A DNA stretch of 37,207 bases from contig DATDPG010000045.1 in the NCBI GenBank assembly GCA_035292885.1, forward strand, positions 1 through 37,207. The letters run 5' to 3'. The position numbers and the translations under genes are program-made. The stretch comes from Bdellovibrionota bacterium (GTDB taxonomy: Bacteria; Bdellovibrionota_G; JALEGL01; DATDPG01). This document shows positions 14,453 to 31,461 of the stretch, one piece after another. The notes under the pieces are model-generated. The model was given only the letters and a program-made list of their open reading frames with translations, was not told the DNA's origin and searched no databases. Each line of letters starts with the position of its first letter. Positions within the stretch are counted from its first letter, which is position 1.

Positions 14453-14709
14453 GTGAACGGTGTCGAGCGGCAGGCCCCTTTCAATTTTCGCAAGTTCCGA
14501 GAAACGCTCGACCGTCGCGTTGACTTGAATGGAAAGATTATTTATGGTTTTGAACAAGTTGCCCCGCATTTGACCGATCCAAACCCCGGCCCTGCTTTGA
14601 GATTGTGAGCTTCAAGAAAATCGAGCGCGTTCTGCCAGACTTCTCCAAGGACGGCGAGCTTGTCGAAACGCCCTTTGAAGGGGCTAAACGGGTCGTTGAT
14701 TTTCGATAG
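14453..14709 (+). pseudogene. Possible frameshifted gene remnant upstream of TMTC-like gene
   Basis: Two adjacent reading frames look protein-like. The first (14453-14608) starts with GTG and encodes a 50-residue peptide containing NGKIIYGFEQVAPHLTDP. It stops just as the second frame, from about 14590 to TAG at 14707, gives FEIVSFKKIERVLPDFSKDG and then GAKRVVDFR. A single one-base shift near 14590-14600 would join them into about 85 residues. The second frame's TAG overlaps the GTG of the TMTC-like gene (TAGTG), as in a coupled operon. No family is recognised. It could also be two unrelated short frames. The rest of the 14348-14708 gap holds only the candidate promoter at its left end. Confidence 0.3.
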
Positions 14710-16136
14710 TGGCGATCGTGCGCCATCGGTGGCTTCGCGTCTGGATTGTCGCAGCGGCGTTAGGCGCGATGGCCTTCTTTTTCTTTCCCGTCACGAATTT
14801 CCAATTTGTAAGTTGGGACGACCAGGTCCACGTTTATCGTAACCCCATAGTGCTCGGCAACGAAGCGGTGTCATGGCACGATCGTTTGCTCACTCCTTCC
14901 CTCGGGTATCCGATACCGGTCACCATTCTGACCTACCAACTCGAACACAAACTATTCGATCTCGATCCGCGAGGATTCCACGCAACCAACGTCGTCCTTC
15001 ATTTAGCCTCCTGCTTGCTGCTGTTCATCTTGGGACGAGCCCTAGGCCTCGGCTTTTGGGGAGCGTTTTTCTCCATGATGCTGTTCGGTCTTCATCCCGT
15101 GGTTTCCGAGCCCGTTTCGTGGGTCTCCGGCCGAAAAGACCTTCTGGCGTTGTTTTTCTCGCTCGGCGCTACGTTGCTCGTCGTGACCAAAGGAATCTTT
15201 TGGAAACGCTTGCCCACATGGGCCGCCGCAGTTCTTTATCTCCTCGCCATTTTTTCCAAACCTACCGCTGTGTTTCTGCCGCTTTTCTGGGGGGCTGTAT
15301 TTTGGTTTCGCGAGAAGTTGTCTCTTCGTAAAACAATTTTGCGACTTTCGCCCCTCTTTCTCATTTCCATCTCGGTTGTAACCGCAAGCCTTTTCGGGCA
15401 ATCGCGTTTGGGGAGCGTACAAATACCCTATTCACCTTTCGTATGGCTGCGGGAGGTTTGGTACGGCTTCGGGTTTCATGCGAGGCTTTTATTTTTTGTC
15501 CAAGCACCGCTTCCAAAGCAGATGGCCGAGGACATGCCTCCTCCATTTCAGATGACGGTAGATCTCTTTCCCCTGTTGGCCATCACCTTTTTGGTCCTCC
15601 TCATGAAGCTTAATAAGCCCCCAAAGGGGTCTGCAGGACATCTCGGTCTATGGTGGGGAGTTTTATCTTATCTGCCTTCCTCCAACTTGATTCCACTCAC
15701 TCGGTTTTTGGCCGACAGCTACGTTTATTTTCCCCTTGTGGGCTTCTCGTTGTTTTTCGGTGATCGCTTTGAATCTTTCACGCCTCATTTTTCAAAACCG
15801 CTTTGGCGGACATTGGGTCTCATGTTCATTTGTTCGGTGTTCGTTCTCATGGCGATTCGAACGACGGCGGCCATCCTTCCATGGCGCGACAGCGTGCAAC
15901 TCTGGCAAGCCGTCTACCAAAAATATCCGGATCGCCCCTACGTCTGCCGGTTTCTCGGCGACGCGTATGGAACCATGGGTGATTATCACGCCGCGTTACT
16001 CCGGTACGATACGTGCGGAAAAATTTTCGGCCGGGACTTGGTCGAAGAAAAAATCGAACTCACGCGAAGACTGCGGGATGAGCATCGTCCGGTCGAAGAA
16101 ATCCTCCCAGGCAAGCTTGCGGATGAGCTTCGGTAG
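14709..16136 (+). CDS. TMTC-like membrane glycosyltransferase (GT-C fold) with C-terminal TPR
   Basis: The 475-residue integral membrane protein has about 9-11 hydrophobic helices. The first loop after TM1 carries FVSWDDQVHVYRNPIV (Asp-Asp at residues 37-38), the acidic pair typical of PMT/TMTC-type GT-C enzymes. Further TMTC hallmarks are LHPVVSEPVSWVSGRKDLLA, a SKPTAVFLPLF helix and the YVYFPLVGFSLFFG segment. The C-terminus has one or two TPR-like repeats (CRFLGDAYGTMGDYHAALLRYD). Eukaryotic TMTC proteins are O-mannosyltransferases of exported proteins; bacterial members are uncharacterised. GTG 14709 is used. It lies between the PilF/RodZ-like cluster and mtnP-rlmN on the opposite strand, and is one of four such genes in the window. 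Confidence 0.8.
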   Translation: MAIVRHRWLRVWIVAAALGAMAFFFFPVTNFQFVSWDDQVHVYRNPIVLGNEAVSWHDRLLTPSLGYPIPVTILTYQLEHKLFDLDPRGFHATNVVLHLASCLLLFILGRALGLGFWGAFFSMMLFGLHPVVSEPVSWVSGRKDLLALFFSLGATLLVVTKGIFWKRLPTWAAAVLYLLAIFSKPTAVFLPLFWGAVFWFREKLSLRKTILRLSPLFLISISVVTASLFGQSRLGSVQIPYSPFVWLREVWYGFGFHARLLFFVQAPLPKQMAEDMPPPFQMTVDLFPLLAITFLVLLMKLNKPPKGSAGHLGLWWGVLSYLPSSNLIPLTRFLADSYVYFPLVGFSLFFGDRFESFTPHFSKPLWRTLGLMFICSVFVLMAIRTTAAILPWRDSVQLWQAVYQKYPDRPYVCRFLGDAYGTMGDYHAALLRYDTCGKIFGRDLVEEKIELTRRLRDEHRPVEEILPGKLADELR

Positions 16137-24182: not shown

Positions 24183-25784
24183 CTACCGCAAGCAGTCGAA
24201 GTTACGCGCCTCTAACTCATGAACCTCGCCGAAACGGAGGATCGCCTGCTCTCGGATTCTATCGAGTTGCTCGCACCGGCGTTCGCGGTCAAGAACACGG
24301 AGCGGCATCACCCAATACTGAAGCTGTGCCGGCTCCAGCGCTCTAAGTTTTTCAAAGTACGCAAGAGATTGGTTCGTCTCGCCGGCGCGGTAATTCAGGG
24401 CGCCAAGGCAATGAAGACTGTCGAGGTGAATTTTTCGATAGCGGCCAGTAGCGGAAGACAATGCGAGTGCGCGCTCGCAGTGAAATCGAACTTTTTGTGA
24501 ATCCCCTTCTTCTTCGAATAACGGCCAAAGATTGCGGTGGATGCGTGGAGACTCTCCGTTCGTTTCTCGGGCAAAGCTCCAATACGTCATTTCGTTTTTC
24601 CATGTGTACCCGAGCACGAAGGTAAAGACGGAGAACACTGCCAAAATCGCTACGGCCGTTCCAATCCAAATACGGGACCACGCGCCGGTGGGAACAACGG
24701 AAGCAACCACAAGGACCAAGCCGAGAGTAGGAAGGACAAGGTAATGATCCTGAGGTACTCCGGTGATCAAGCCGACTGTGGTTATAAGGAGCAAAGGCGG
24801 TGCACCCGTAAGGGTGCCGATCCAAAGCAGCTTCTTGTTCCTCGCTCGTCGAACGGCAAAAATCAATAGAACGGCCAGAAGACAAACGGAAAACCACGAG
24901 AGCGGCGCGATGGAAGTCGCGGCCTCTCTATAACCTGCGGGAGAGAATGGAAGGGTCATGTTCCCAATATTCTGGAAGAAAACAAACCACCACTCTTCTG
25001 CAGCAGGCGCAAACAAGAAGATCGCCGGATTAAAGCGAATCCCGATTTTCTTGGCGACGATTTCATAGCCTAAAATCAACAAAGCGATGGCCGCAAGCCA
25101 TGAAACTCTCAGTTTCCGGGACCCCTCCCAGCGAGGAAGGGCGAGAAAGGCCGTCACAAGGGCGGGACAAACCAACACGGCCGTCTCTTTGGAGAGAAGG
25201 GCGCACGCATAAAGCGCTAAGCTCAAGAAGAGATAACGCGACTTCCCCTGGACCACAATCAGGACCGAAAGAAGGTAAAACAATGTCAAGAGCGATTCGT
25301 GGCGGGCTGTGATGTTGTAAACGACACTGGCTACGGCCGGGTGAACCGAAAAAGGAGCCGTGAGCAGGAAAGCCGCCACGGATGAAAAGCCGAGCGTTCG
25401 TAGAACAAAAAACAGCGTTGTTACGATCCCAACATGGATCAGCAGGTTCGTCGTTCGAAAGAGTGCGGGCGTTTCAGCCCCCAGAGAGCGTTCGATCAGA
25501 TACGTCGTGAGCTGCAGCGGTCGGTAGACGAGAAAGTCCCTATTGGGGTGGGCCGTTAAGAGGGAAAGCGGATTCTTAAACAATTCCGGAAGCCCACGGA
25601 TGTCCGAAACATGCGGATTGTTTTCGACCATCTCGTGGTCGTCCCAGACAAAACCATTCTGGAGCGAGCGGCCGAACACGCCTGTCACCAGTACGAACAA
25701 GAGCACCCACCCCCAGCTTCTCGGCACGCTACGACCTAACCTTTGGAATTGTGAGGCCAACGGGAACACCATGGAGAGATGCAT
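24183..25784 (-). CDS. TMTC-like membrane glycosyltransferase with C-terminal TPR
   Basis: The 533-residue membrane protein has many hydrophobic helices. TM1 is followed by SLQNGFVWDDHEMVENNPHV (Asp-Asp at 48-49), the acidic loop of the TMTC/GT-C type. Further signatures are FLVYRPLQLTTYLIERSLG, FSVHPAVASVVYNITARHE, LSKETAVLVCPALVTAF and VPQDHYLVLPTLGLVLV. After the last helix come TPR-like repeats (SLHCLGALNYRAGETNQSLAYFEKL). It is a predicted O-glycosyltransferase of exported proteins, by family resemblance only. ATG 25784 or 25772 could start it. It is divergent from the next TMTC-like gene, to which it is most similar in the loop motif and in the C-terminal repeats. Confidence 0.8.
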   Translation of the reverse strand: MHLSMVFPLASQFQRLGRSVPRSWGWVLLFVLVTGVFGRSLQNGFVWDDHEMVENNPHVSDIRGLPELFKNPLSLLTAHPNRDFLVYRPLQLTTYLIERSLGAETPALFRTTNLLIHVGIVTTLFFVLRTLGFSSVAAFLLTAPFSVHPAVASVVYNITARHESLLTLFYLLSVLIVVQGKSRYLFLSLALYACALLSKETAVLVCPALVTAFLALPRWEGSRKLRVSWLAAIALLILGYEIVAKKIGIRFNPAIFLFAPAAEEWWFVFFQNIGNMTLPFSPAGYREAATSIAPLSWFSVCLLAVLLIFAVRRARNKKLLWIGTLTGAPPLLLITTVGLITGVPQDHYLVLPTLGLVLVVASVVPTGAWSRIWIGTAVAILAVFSVFTFVLGYTWKNEMTYWSFARETNGESPRIHRNLWPLFEEEGDSQKVRFHCERALALSSATGRYRKIHLDSLHCLGALNYRAGETNQSLAYFEKLRALEPAQLQYWVMPLRVLDRERRCEQLDRIREQAILRFGEVHELEARNFDCLR

Positions 25785-25795
25785 CGGAGGTCGAC

Positions 25796-25824
25796 TCTAC
25801 AGGCGAGTTCGCTGGTGATACAAT
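25796..25824 (+). promoter_or_regulatory. Candidate extended -10 promoter of the TMTC-like gene at 25873
   Basis: TACAAT (25819-25824) is preceded by TGA, giving an extended -10 (TGATACAAT). A weak -35, TCTACA (25796-25801), lies 17 bp upstream. Transcription would begin near 25831, about 40 bp before the CTG start. Confidence 0.45.
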
Positions 25825-25872
25825 GCAAAAGTACGTGCGACATGTTGCAACGACCAACCGGAGGAGACACGT

Positions 25873-27441
25873 CTGAGTCCTCGCGTCGCAGCCTTACTTC
25901 TGGCGCTTGTATCCTTCGTTGTGTACGGGAGAACTCTCCAAAACGGGTTCGTGTACGACGATCACGACGAGGTTGAGCACAACTCCCACATCACGTCCTA
26001 TCGCAATTTCCCCGATTATTTTCGGCGGCCGTTTTGGGAGGTTACTGCGGCCGAAAATTTTCCAAGCAATATTTACCGGCCGCTGAAACTCGTCTCGTAT
26101 TATGTCGATTATCAAATCGGGGGAAACGAGCCGGCCCTCTACCATCTCTCCAATTTGGTCTTTCATACCGTGGCGTCGGTTCTTCTTTATTTCAATTTGG
26201 TCGGCCTGCATTTCGGCCCGCAAACGGCGTTCTTCGGCGCCGCTTTTTTTGCGTTGCATCCGATGAATTCCGAGGTGGTGTATTACATTTCGGGTCGACC
26301 GGACGCACTGGCCGCCGTTTTCTTTTTCGCCGCGATGCTGATGTGCCGAGTGGGGAGGCCGTTTCTTTCGTCGGTTGGGGGCGCAGCTTTCTTCGGCGCA
26401 CTTCTCTGCAAGGAAACTGTCTTGGTGCTTATGCCCGCACTGGCCCTTCTCGCGATTCGATCGAAAACCAGGGACAGAAAAGCCATGTTCATCACGCTCG
26501 CGGCGTGCAGCTTGGCGGCCCTTGCGTATCTGCTCCTTCGGCAGCAATTTGCGAGGGGAACGCCAATGGGAATCGTTCTCCAATCCATCCAAAGCCGGGA
26601 AGCCTTGAAAACGTGGCTGACATACCTCCAGTTTCTCATGCTCCCCTTCGGACCGGCAGGCTATCGGGAGGTGGCTGGAGCATCCTATGCCGAGAATACT
26701 GCGGCCTCAGCTTTTTTCCTGGGTGTGCTTCTCCTCGCGTTCGTCCGCGGAAGAGCACATTCCCTTGTAAACTGGGTCGGTGTCCTTTTCGTGTTCTCGA
26801 CGTTGTTCTTGGCTTCGGCTCTCACGATGTCCAGCCGGGTGATTTCGGATCGATATCTCTATTTTTCAGTCGTCGGCCTCAGTTTCTTGGTTTGTGCCGG
26901 TCTCGGCGCCTTAAATCGGCGGAGAATCCTTCAGGCGGCTCTCGGAATTCTTTTGCTCATCTTTGGCTCGTTTTCATATCTGGCCGGGAAGCAGTGGAAG
27001 AATGATTTTTCATTCTGGTGCTTTGCCGCGGAAATGAATCCAAACTCCGCCGTGGTTCAGCGAAATCTCGGCTTTATTTTTTTTGAGAGGGGGCGGTTTG
27101 ACGAAGCCGAAGGGGCCTATCTCAAGGCGTTGACCTTATCGGAAGGTGTCGAGTTCAATCGGCGGACTCAACTCAAGAGTCTTCACTCTTTGGGTGCCCT
27201 GTACTATCGGCTAGGGGATCTCGATCGCTCACGAACTTATTATGAAAGGCTACTTACGTTGGATCCGGGACAACAGGAACATTGGCAATTCGTCGTAACT
27301 CTCCTGTTGGCCCAGAACCGTTGCCAAGACGCCGAAAAACTCGTCGGGCAGGCGAACAAACGATTTCCCGGTCGACCGCCGCTCTTGGTTCCGGGGGACC
27401 TTTGCCCAAAGACAAAGAAAACCACGAATCGAATGGACTAG
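25873..27441 (+). CDS. TMTC-like membrane glycosyltransferase with C-terminal TPR, probable CTG start
   Basis: The protein of about 522 residues has TM1 (RVAALLLALVSFVVYG), then TLQNGFVYDDHDEVEHNSHI with the acidic pair, YRPLKLVSYYVDYQIGG, LHPMNSEVVYYISGRPDALA, LLCKETVLVLMPALALLA and SDRYLYFSVVGLSFLV. C-terminal TPRs follow (VQRNLGFIFFERGRFDEAEGAYLKA is split over two helices). The whole of TM1 lies upstream of the first conventional in-frame start, GTG 25921, which would cut it off. The only sensible start is CTG 25873, with GGAGGAG six bases before it. No ATG, GTG or TTG exists in frame between the upstream stop at 25816 and that point. The gene is convergent with the prepilin gene. Confidence 0.8.
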   Translation: MSPRVAALLLALVSFVVYGRTLQNGFVYDDHDEVEHNSHITSYRNFPDYFRRPFWEVTAAENFPSNIYRPLKLVSYYVDYQIGGNEPALYHLSNLVFHTVASVLLYFNLVGLHFGPQTAFFGAAFFALHPMNSEVVYYISGRPDALAAVFFFAAMLMCRVGRPFLSSVGGAAFFGALLCKETVLVLMPALALLAIRSKTRDRKAMFITLAACSLAALAYLLLRQQFARGTPMGIVLQSIQSREALKTWLTYLQFLMLPFGPAGYREVAGASYAENTAASAFFLGVLLLAFVRGRAHSLVNWVGVLFVFSTLFLASALTMSSRVISDRYLYFSVVGLSFLVCAGLGALNRRRILQAALGILLLIFGSFSYLAGKQWKNDFSFWCFAAEMNPNSAVVQRNLGFIFFERGRFDEAEGAYLKALTLSEGVEFNRRTQLKSLHSLGALYYRLGDLDRSRTYYERLLTLDPGQQEHWQFVVTLLLAQNRCQDAEKLVGQANKRFPGRPPLLVPGDLCPKTKKTTNRMD

Positions 27442-29943: not shown

Positions 29944-31461
29944 TTGATTCGATATTACGTTGCCTTATTCGCCGTTGTCATCGCGTCCTACTGGAATATT
30001 TTTCCAAACGGATACATCGGCGACGACCATTACCTTCTGGAAAACCATCGTTTTTTTTCGGATTGGGGGAATCTCTATCTTCTGTTTACCCGTGATAGCT
30101 GGGATGTTTTTTGGCCGGAACATGGCCCGGTTGGTTATTGGAGGCCGTTGTTTCTCGCCTCCTTCTACTTTGACAATTGCCTTCCATTACCCACGCTGGT
30201 GTCACACCATCTTGTAGATCTACTTTTATACTTCGGTGCTGTGATTGTCGTATTTCGTTTCCTGTTCCACTTTGTGCAGGATGCCACGGCCGCTGCCCTC
30301 GGTGCGGTGTTCTTCGCGGCATGGCCTCTACATACGGACTCCGTGACCCTGATGCTGGGCCGTGAATACAGTATGTGCGCGATCTTGTGGATAGGAGCCT
30401 ACATGTATTCTGAGCGGTATTGTGGCCGCGGACCCCCATCTTGTCTCTGGATTTCATGTGTGTTCTTTGCCTTGTCTCTTTTGTGCGTTGAGAGCGCGAT
30501 CGTATTCCCGTTCATGGCGCTGCCCATGCTCTTTCGCGGTCCGGGTGCGTCGGGCCGACGCGTTTACCGACTCGGCGCCAGTTTCATCGCTGTTATCATA
30601 ACGTACTTGGCTTATCGGAAATGGATGATTCCGATCAAGCTGTATCCGCCCGAACACATGAATTTGGAATTGCTTTGGGATTCGGGAGCGGTAGCTCTGC
30701 GTTCCTTCCGCGCCATCCTTTGGCCCTTTGATTTTGTTGTGACCGAAACCCCCGCACCTCTGGTCGGCAGAGTTGCGGACGGGTTCCTGGGATTATTCCT
30801 AGGAACGGTGGGTTTGTTGGCCGTCGTTATTTCATATATCAAGAGATGCCCGAAAGGTTACCTTCCATTATTATTGTATCTCACGCCGTTGCTGTTGGTG
30901 ATCCCTCCCTATCCCCGCGGCTCGGTGTACCAAGATCGTTATCTTTTTCTTCCATCCGTCGGATTGGCTTTGGCCATAGGTTACACGGCAGGTTGGCTTC
31001 GGGAACGAGGTTCAGCTCGACTGCTCCTCCTGTCTGGTGGACTCATGGGGGTATGTGTGCTCAGCTTTATTTTTACCAGCCTTGCACGCAATTTCGACTT
31101 TCGAAACGATATCAGCTTTTGGTGTACGGAAGCCGATCGGCAGCGCACCGCTTTTGATGCGAATAAACGTTGCGGAAAGGCATTTCAGAATGTCGGACGA
31201 GACTCCGAGGCGCTCGTCTACTACGATCGGGCACTGAATCTTAAATTGCATCCAGACGTCATCAACGACTATGGCGTGATTCTCGCGGGAAGGGGCCAGT
31301 GCAAAGACGCCCTCCGTTTGTTTCGCTTCCTCCGAAAGAGGGATGAAACTTATATCAAAGGATGGAAAAACGAAATCGCTTGCATTCGGCAATTGAAGGA
31401 CGAAGCCCAGCTCCGGCGAGTGTTACCGGCCGCCAAAAAGGCAATCCCCCGTGAATTCTAA
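29944..31461 (+). CDS. TMTC-like membrane glycosyltransferase, interrupting the kinase-regulator pair
   Basis: The 505-residue membrane protein has TM1, then FPNGYIGDDHYLLENHRFFS (Asp-Asp at 27-28), GYWRPLFLASFYFD, PLHTDSVTLMLGREYSMCA, CVESAIVFPFMALPML and YQDRYLFLPSVGLALAIG. A TPR-like end follows (ALVYYDRALNLKLHPDVIND and DALRLFRFLRKRD). It is the fourth TMTC-like gene of the window and the most divergent in the loop motif. TTG 29944 is the only workable start after the upstream in-frame stop. It lies between two copies of the kinase 3' end and runs against both. It is a predicted O-glycosyltransferase, by family only. Confidence 0.8.
   Translation: MIRYYVALFAVVIASYWNIFPNGYIGDDHYLLENHRFFSDWGNLYLLFTRDSWDVFWPEHGPVGYWRPLFLASFYFDNCLPLPTLVSHHLVDLLLYFGAVIVVFRFLFHFVQDATAAALGAVFFAAWPLHTDSVTLMLGREYSMCAILWIGAYMYSERYCGRGPPSCLWISCVFFALSLLCVESAIVFPFMALPMLFRGPGASGRRVYRLGASFIAVIITYLAYRKWMIPIKLYPPEHMNLELLWDSGAVALRSFRAILWPFDFVVTETPAPLVGRVADGFLGLFLGTVGLLAVVISYIKRCPKGYLPLLLYLTPLLLVIPPYPRGSVYQDRYLFLPSVGLALAIGYTAGWLRERGSARLLLLSGGLMGVCVLSFIFTSLARNFDFRNDISFWCTEADRQRTAFDANKRCGKAFQNVGRDSEALVYYDRALNLKLHPDVINDYGVILAGRGQCKDALRLFRFLRKRDETYIKGWKNEIACIRQLKDEAQLRRVLPAAKKAIPREF

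Follow-up and report, generated by a model that had tools for sequence, protein, structure and literature searches.

A probable CTG initiation codon in a TMTC-like GT-C-fold membrane protein gene of a Bdellovibrionota bacterium

CTG starts are already known in bacteria. They make up 0.7% of the mapped starts of Caulobacter crescentus (PMC4117421), and for bacteria in general CUG is quoted at 0.024% of initiation codons, with 0.86% of the efficiency of AUG (PMC11497404). Weak starts with extended Shine-Dalgarno (SD) sequences are documented for Staphylococcus aureus, as PMC13009471 describes, and GUG and UUG starts are reported to tend toward stronger SDs in a study that finds switches from AUG to CUG very rare, at 2 of 61,358 ancestral AUGs (PMC5622118). 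An unbiased selection in mycobacteria is reported to have given no enrichment of CTG at the leadered start position (PMC4633059), and the SD-preceded CUG of Caulobacter dnaA is described as bound by 30S subunits in vitro and unused in vivo (PMC8443254). On the side of the protein, two accounts of the GT-C enzymes place an acidic motif after the first transmembrane helix (TM1), within the first luminal loop, report it to be essential in several of these enzymes, and give the N-termini of TMTC proteins as cytoplasmic (PMC6801728, PMC7801869).

In this paper we describe a gene for a TMTC-like membrane protein from a Bdellovibrionota bacterium which is a further rare instance of such a start, its initiation codon being probably CTG 25873. 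It has the use of CTG as a bacterial start in common with Caulobacter crescentus (PMC4117421), where the starts were mapped by ribosome profiling and LC-MS, whereas the case for CTG 25873 is built on its sequence, on homology and on a model. A sequence-only reading of this DNA had called CTG starts rare in bacteria; rare they are, but in view of the Caulobacter figure not extraordinary. The pairing of a weak start codon with a strong SD resembles the AUA and AUU starts described for S. aureus (PMC13009471), although those involve other codons, are conserved between species and were established by ribosome profiling and reporters. Caulobacter dnaA likewise has a CUG behind an SD, but is described with an AUG start downstream (PMC8443254), whereas the next conventional codon of the TMTC-like gene would cost the protein its TM1. 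With TMTC proteins and the GT-C superfamily as described (PMC6801728, PMC7801869), our protein shares a TM1 followed by a DD motif, the GT-C fold and C-terminal TPRs. It differs from TMTC in that its aligned prokaryotic relatives are 20-35% identical and Pfam gives no TMTC or DUF1736 match, and its activity is putative.

The window, by which we mean the whole stretch of 37,207 nucleotides that was analysed, holds the following features at this locus.

25725..25727, minus strand: GTG of a divergent paralogue, exactly 30 codons before its DD motif, SD -6.6
25796..25824, plus strand: promoter-like site, TCTACA, 17 nt, TACAAT, with a TG-extended -10 box; 9 of 12 matches
25823..25876, plus strand: 17-codon open reading frame (ORF) in another frame, from ATG 25823, read from the sequence; SD -2.8 kcal/mol
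25860..25866, plus strand: Shine-Dalgarno GGAGGAG, with GGAGG 8 nt and AGGAG 6 nt ahead of the CTG
25873..25875, plus strand: candidate initiation codon CTG, from homologue start column, SD and modelled TM1
25873..27441, plus strand: gene of the TMTC-like GT-C/TPR membrane protein, 522 codons from the CTG plus the stop
25879..25941, plus strand: TM1, modelled helix of residues 3-23, pLDDT 95-98
25921..25923, plus strand: GTG, the first conventional in-frame start, rejected; without SD and inside TM1
25957..25962, plus strand: DD motif, residues 29-30, after TM1, invariant in 23 aligned sequences

The frame of the gene is bounded upstream by the stop TGA 25816-25818, and the first in-frame ATG, GTG or TTG after it is GTG 25921. 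Between them GGAGGAG (25860-25866) is followed by a 6-nt spacer, ACACGT, and CTG 25873-25875. Both the lack of a conventional start in this interval and the SD six bases ahead of the CTG had been pointed out from the letters alone, with coordinates that proved exact. The extended -10 box claimed above the CTG is also there (TG and TACAAT at 25819-25824), and the site to which it belongs matches the promoter consensus at 9 of 12 positions against a mean of 0.3 in shuffles, in both cases as a consensus match only.

The SD of CTG 25873 has a strength of -9.5 kcal/mol against the usual bacterial anti-SD, which we take to apply here. A pattern search of the assembly allowing one mismatch did not find the 16S 3' end, and the Rfam 16S match spans model positions 9-873 only. 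Within the frame from 25819 to 25921, strong SDs (-8.8 to -9.5 kcal/mol) are limited to the four codons of 25870-25879, among which CTG 25873 is the sole near-cognate; the other codons have -3.8 kcal/mol or weaker, and GTG 25921 is without an SD (+0.9 kcal/mol). For comparison we used 715,336 bases of the same genome (61 stretches, 478 genes), where an SD this strong is found at a canonical start within the first 30 codons in 48 of the 478 genes, at 145 of 8238 codons that precede the first canonical start and at 134 of 9560 internal codons. The preferred spacing before ATG or GTG in this sample is 5-7 nt for GGAGG and 6-8 nt for AGGAG. The SD stands at a working distance from the CTG in either register (GGAGG spacing 8, AGGAG spacing 6), with GGAGG off the genome's peak, and the AGGAG register is the better fit because its spacing lies within it. 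In the leader RNA (25831-25920) the SD is predicted to pair with pyrimidines of the first codons, and it comes out paired in all five leader lengths folded, which speaks against the CTG, although the stability of the folds does not exceed that of shuffles (z 0.16; -0.05, 0.00, 0.23). The genome has a tRNA-Met (CAT), the anticodon stem-loop of which fits the initiator pattern.

The structure of the protein bears directly on where it begins. A model begun at the CTG has a mean pLDDT of 88.6 and a pTM of 0.89, with 23 sequences, and its residues 1-30 reach pLDDT values of 95, 98 and 96 in successive blocks. The claim that TM1 begins upstream of GTG 25921 is borne out, as the modelled helix comprises residues 3-23 and has the GTG inside it; a start at the GTG would lose residues 1-16, which is most of the helix. 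In both alignment and model, the acidic DD after TM1 takes the position of the GT-C motif in the first external loop. We compared the predicted model with known structures by VIA-align, as a re-examination of Foldseek's own matches and not an independent search, and the first 16 rows are ArnT, Pmt4, OST subunits and PglB (Z about 20-21, rmsd 3.9-4.7, 307-331 residues), with the alignment beginning at model residue 1 in most of them. Pmt4 (9i5k: Z 21.3, rmsd 3.9 over 324 residues), PglB, the OST chains and ArnT 5ezm align from model residue 1, and ArnT 5f15 from residue 8 (Z 21.3, rmsd 4.4 over 323 residues). The Foldseek list itself is headed by TPR structures, with a human OST chain at rank 21. 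A sequence-profile search of the PDB matched 449 sequences at E <= 0.01, the best 60 of which cover the TPR part only, from profile position 380 onward. Pfam finds the C-terminal TPR (TPR_2, 1.6e-12, residues 436-466) and no TMTC or DUF1736 match at E <= 0.01, and we therefore call the protein TMTC-like rather than TMTC. By this model the gene product is of the GT-C membrane fold, with glycosyl transfer as a putative function. Since GTG 25921 would cut the TM1 of this fold, a start upstream of it is very probably required.

The sequence-only reading had proposed to look at where homologues start, and this comparison, made with paralogues and distant homologues only, favours the CTG. We compared 29 frames with a DD motif; L021, which is without DD, was dropped, and L015 and L031 of the 27 sources gave no row. 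All 28 other frames have an ATG, GTG or TTG that precedes the last D by 20 codons or more, against a maximum of 14 for the TMTC-like gene. Many frames offer several canonical codons, so this count is weaker than the evidence of frames that have a stop shortly upstream. Such frames can begin 28 codons before DD (L007, L006 and the window gene at 29944), 33 codons (L009) or 36-38 codons (L016), and CTG 25873, with 30 codons, falls within this range of 28-38. In the divergent paralogue (24183-25784, minus strand; 35% identical over the match), GTG 25727, also at exactly 30 codons and with an SD of -6.6, is a better candidate start than the ATG 25784 of the longest ORF, with an SD of -2.4. The first alignment column is not independent evidence, because starts were picked nearest to 31 codons. 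The homologues are 20-35% identical to the TMTC-like protein and their own starts are candidates. Of five genomes of the phylum searched, the other four have no match to it at E <= 1e-40, which is why the start column is drawn from paralogues and distant homologues; a pattern search of genome contigs for orthologues gave 13 pattern matches and no relative. TMTC-like genes match at 21 places in the genome, and the window has four of them (14709-16136, 24183-25784, 25873-27441 and 29944-31461).

How often a CTG would stand behind an SD by chance can be estimated in several ways. The pattern GGAGGAGN{5,7}CTG occurs once in the window against 0.07 expected. Genome-wide, GGAGGAGN6CTG occurs 13 times and equally 13 times in the reversed control, so it is not enriched on its own and we rejected motif enrichment as proof; AGGAGGN{5,8}CTG occurs 62 times against 172 in the reversed control. 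Upstream of first canonical starts, CTG makes up about 1% of the in-frame codons (715-kb sample), and an SD precedes 8 of 85 CTG codons compared with 465 of 8239 codons of all kinds, a small excess over the roughly 5 expected. At any one site the combination is unusual. The chance of a CTG with an SD in the 8-codon interval in which a start is needed is about 0.14%, or 0.7% when widened to CTG, ATT, ATC or ATA; both figures assume independence, and this interval was chosen after the fact.

From the sequence, the SD strength, the position relative to homologues and the modelled TM1 we infer that, as had been proposed, translation of the TMTC-like membrane protein, with its GT-C fold and C-terminal TPRs, very probably starts at CTG 25873. 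Judging from the -10 box, the transcript would start near 25831. The 30S subunits would then bind GGAGGAG, and the initiator tRNA (anticodon CAU) would pair with CUG through a first-position mismatch which the strong SD may help to tolerate. The protein would begin with fMet-Ser-Pro-Arg, where fMet is the expected first residue, and TM1 directly after would put the DD motif outside the cytoplasm, as is described for GT-C enzymes. The CTG probably evolved from ATG, GTG or TTG through a single base change, and would be expected to lower expression relative to ATG.

Several alternatives have to be weighed against initiation at this CTG. It is unlikely, in our estimate, that the true base makes 25873 an ATG, GTG or TTG and that the CTG stems from a mistake in assembly or consensus, or from an allele of a minority strain. 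One wrong base is enough for this, and the assembly (214 contigs, 96.68% complete, 2.12% contaminated) is by these figures possibly metagenomic. Were uniform random errors to explain all five non-canonical candidates that we describe below, a rate of 2.6e-3 per base would be needed, which would produce about 93 premature stops in 813 sampled genes. We observe 75 same-frame neighbours split by one stop, which is an upper bound; by eye, most of them look like normal borders between genes, and one stop (L066:1979) seems to fall within a domain. Short of proof, the stop count speaks against a general error, but not against an error at CTG 25873 alone or at any other single site.

Translation from GTG 25921, with the upstream frame untranslated, would have the first conventional codon of the frame in its favour, but we regard it as highly improbable: besides being without an SD, the GTG would cut TM1 and leave only 14 codons before DD where 28 other frames have at least 20 available, and the residues lost are those modelled at pLDDT 95-98. 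Only slightly more credence can be given to an ATG of another frame (25823 or 25842), whether through an undetected indel or through the 17-codon ORF with reinitiation. The TGA 25874-25876 of this ORF does overlap CTG 25873 as CTGA, and the ArsA-like candidate below has the same overlap with its upstream ORF. Yet both ATGs have weak SDs (-2.8 kcal/mol for 25823, -0.4 for 25842), and ATG 25823 overlaps the best -10 box, so the ORF would lie outside the transcript if the promoter at 25796..25824 is used. The reinitiation version refines initiation at CTG 25873 rather than replacing it, because the CTG is still used.

Further non-canonical starts were sought in the same genome. Among the 13 GGAGGAGN6CTG sites, three are without an upstream in-frame conventional start: that of the TMTC-like gene, one in L094 with only 57 codons after the CTG, and one at a CNNM gene. 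For a wider survey the sample was enlarged to 121 stretches (1,410,201 bases) with 1007 called genes, 813 of them scoring above 30. At least 15 codons of open frame precede the first conventional start in 283 of the 813 genes, and Pfam was run on 60 of these; with half of the genome sampled, the survey is partial. One set took 20 of 23 genes with a near-cognate behind a strong SD, leaving out L085, L180 and the window's own frame, whose TMTC-like protein had already been Pfam-scanned separately. A second set was 30 random genes from the 141 with at least 25 codons and no strong-SD near-cognate, and a third was 10 picked from 12 with a CTG that has a weaker SD or lies near the upstream gene end, or a near-cognate with both. 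A domain begins before the first conventional codon in 2 of 20 genes of the first set (CNNM with CTG, GlgA with ACG), in 1 of 30 of the random set (an ArsA-like ATPase with CTG) and in 1 of 10 of the third (a B12-binding radical SAM protein with CTG). The random match again had a fittingly placed CTG, in a gene that the SD criterion had not picked. There are thus three further CTG candidates and one ACG candidate.

L184:2672 (= L102, G000:C172:2672), plus strand: CTG of a CNNM-CBS gene; GGAGGAG, 6 nt, CTG; Pfam extent and homologue column
L068:8616 (G000:C52), plus strand: ACG of glgA; SD -10.7, with GGAGG only 4 nt away
L157:17624 (G000:C84), minus strand: CTG of an ArsA-like ATPase gene; CTGA overlap with the upstream stop, SD -2.2
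L068:11164 (G000:C52), plus strand: CTG of a B12-binding radical SAM gene; SD -6.4, Pfam extent

The CNNM domain begins at residue 11 counted from the CTG, and the first conventional codon lies 60 codons in, inside the domain. Of 11 homologues from other genomes, 10 have an ATG, GTG or TTG within 2 codons of the CTG column (ungapped positions), the exception being L206 with conventional codons at -6 and +4. The gene follows an open frame which we read by eye as lon. For glgA, the ACG column has a conventional codon no more than 3 codons away in 10 of 11 homologues, with L208 as the exception. By eye, the gene appears to overlap the end of the one upstream. The first conventional codon of the ArsA-like ATPase gene, a GTG, falls within the P-loop, and a search of 18 other genomes gave no relative at E <= 1e-20. 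The radical SAM gene reads CTG-Lys-Leu-Leu-Leu-Ile from its candidate start and reaches a conventional start 27 codons further on; the two Pfam matches, of 27.8 and 25.1 bits, are under the Pfam cut-offs.

Together with the TMTC-like gene these make five non-canonical candidates among 813 sampled genes, or about 0.6% from an incomplete search. Tentatively, and with more doubt than belief, one may ask whether this lineage has a relaxed start-codon selection in which CTG, and at least once ACG, starts several conserved genes. If true, the share would be far above the 0.024% that PMC11497404 quotes for CUG in bacteria. Recurrence in one poorly sampled lineage would possibly be of more interest than a single site, and the candidates together provide a list of testable sites. 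A gene caller limited to ATG, GTG and TTG would trim the TMTC-like protein to GTG 25921, with partial loss of TM1 and a wrong topology. Taken with the other candidates, this suggests that CTG starts can be overlooked when genes of poorly sampled phyla are annotated.

Two other screens were applied to the sample. In 3 of the 813 genes, namely the TMTC-like gene, L174:16388 and L054:9127 (the latter two on the minus strand), a hydrophobic stretch starts 6-25 codons ahead of the first conventional codon. This screen is blind to the CNNM case because the stretch there is further than 25 codons upstream of the first canonical codon. Codon likelihood was too weak for finding missing 5' ends, giving 0.03 per codon for the TMTC-like gene and -0.08 for glgA, while the CNNM gene ranks ninth, among rows most of which look like antisense frames. 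At the CNNM gene an initial gene caller had placed an antisense ORF, and it was replaced by a second one. We also considered infC for an ATT-type start, but TTG and ATG candidates stand ahead of its domain and none is needed.

Some minor observations were made along the way. The N-terminus at L174:16388 is lipoprotein-like; its hydrophobic stretch precedes the first TTG, and none of the near-cognates there has the support of an SD. At L066:1979 (plus strand), a TAG stands between same-frame stretches that read as one BadF/BcrA-like ATPase and is possibly a premature stop. In the window, a minus-strand gene (5834-5783) seems to have a signal peptide that begins ahead of its first conventional start, TTG 5783; its frame is open from 5834, with ATC 5831, ATC 5825 and CTG 5822 among the near-cognates, without a strong SD. 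The window also has a tmRNA gene at 453-801 on the minus strand (188.6 bits).
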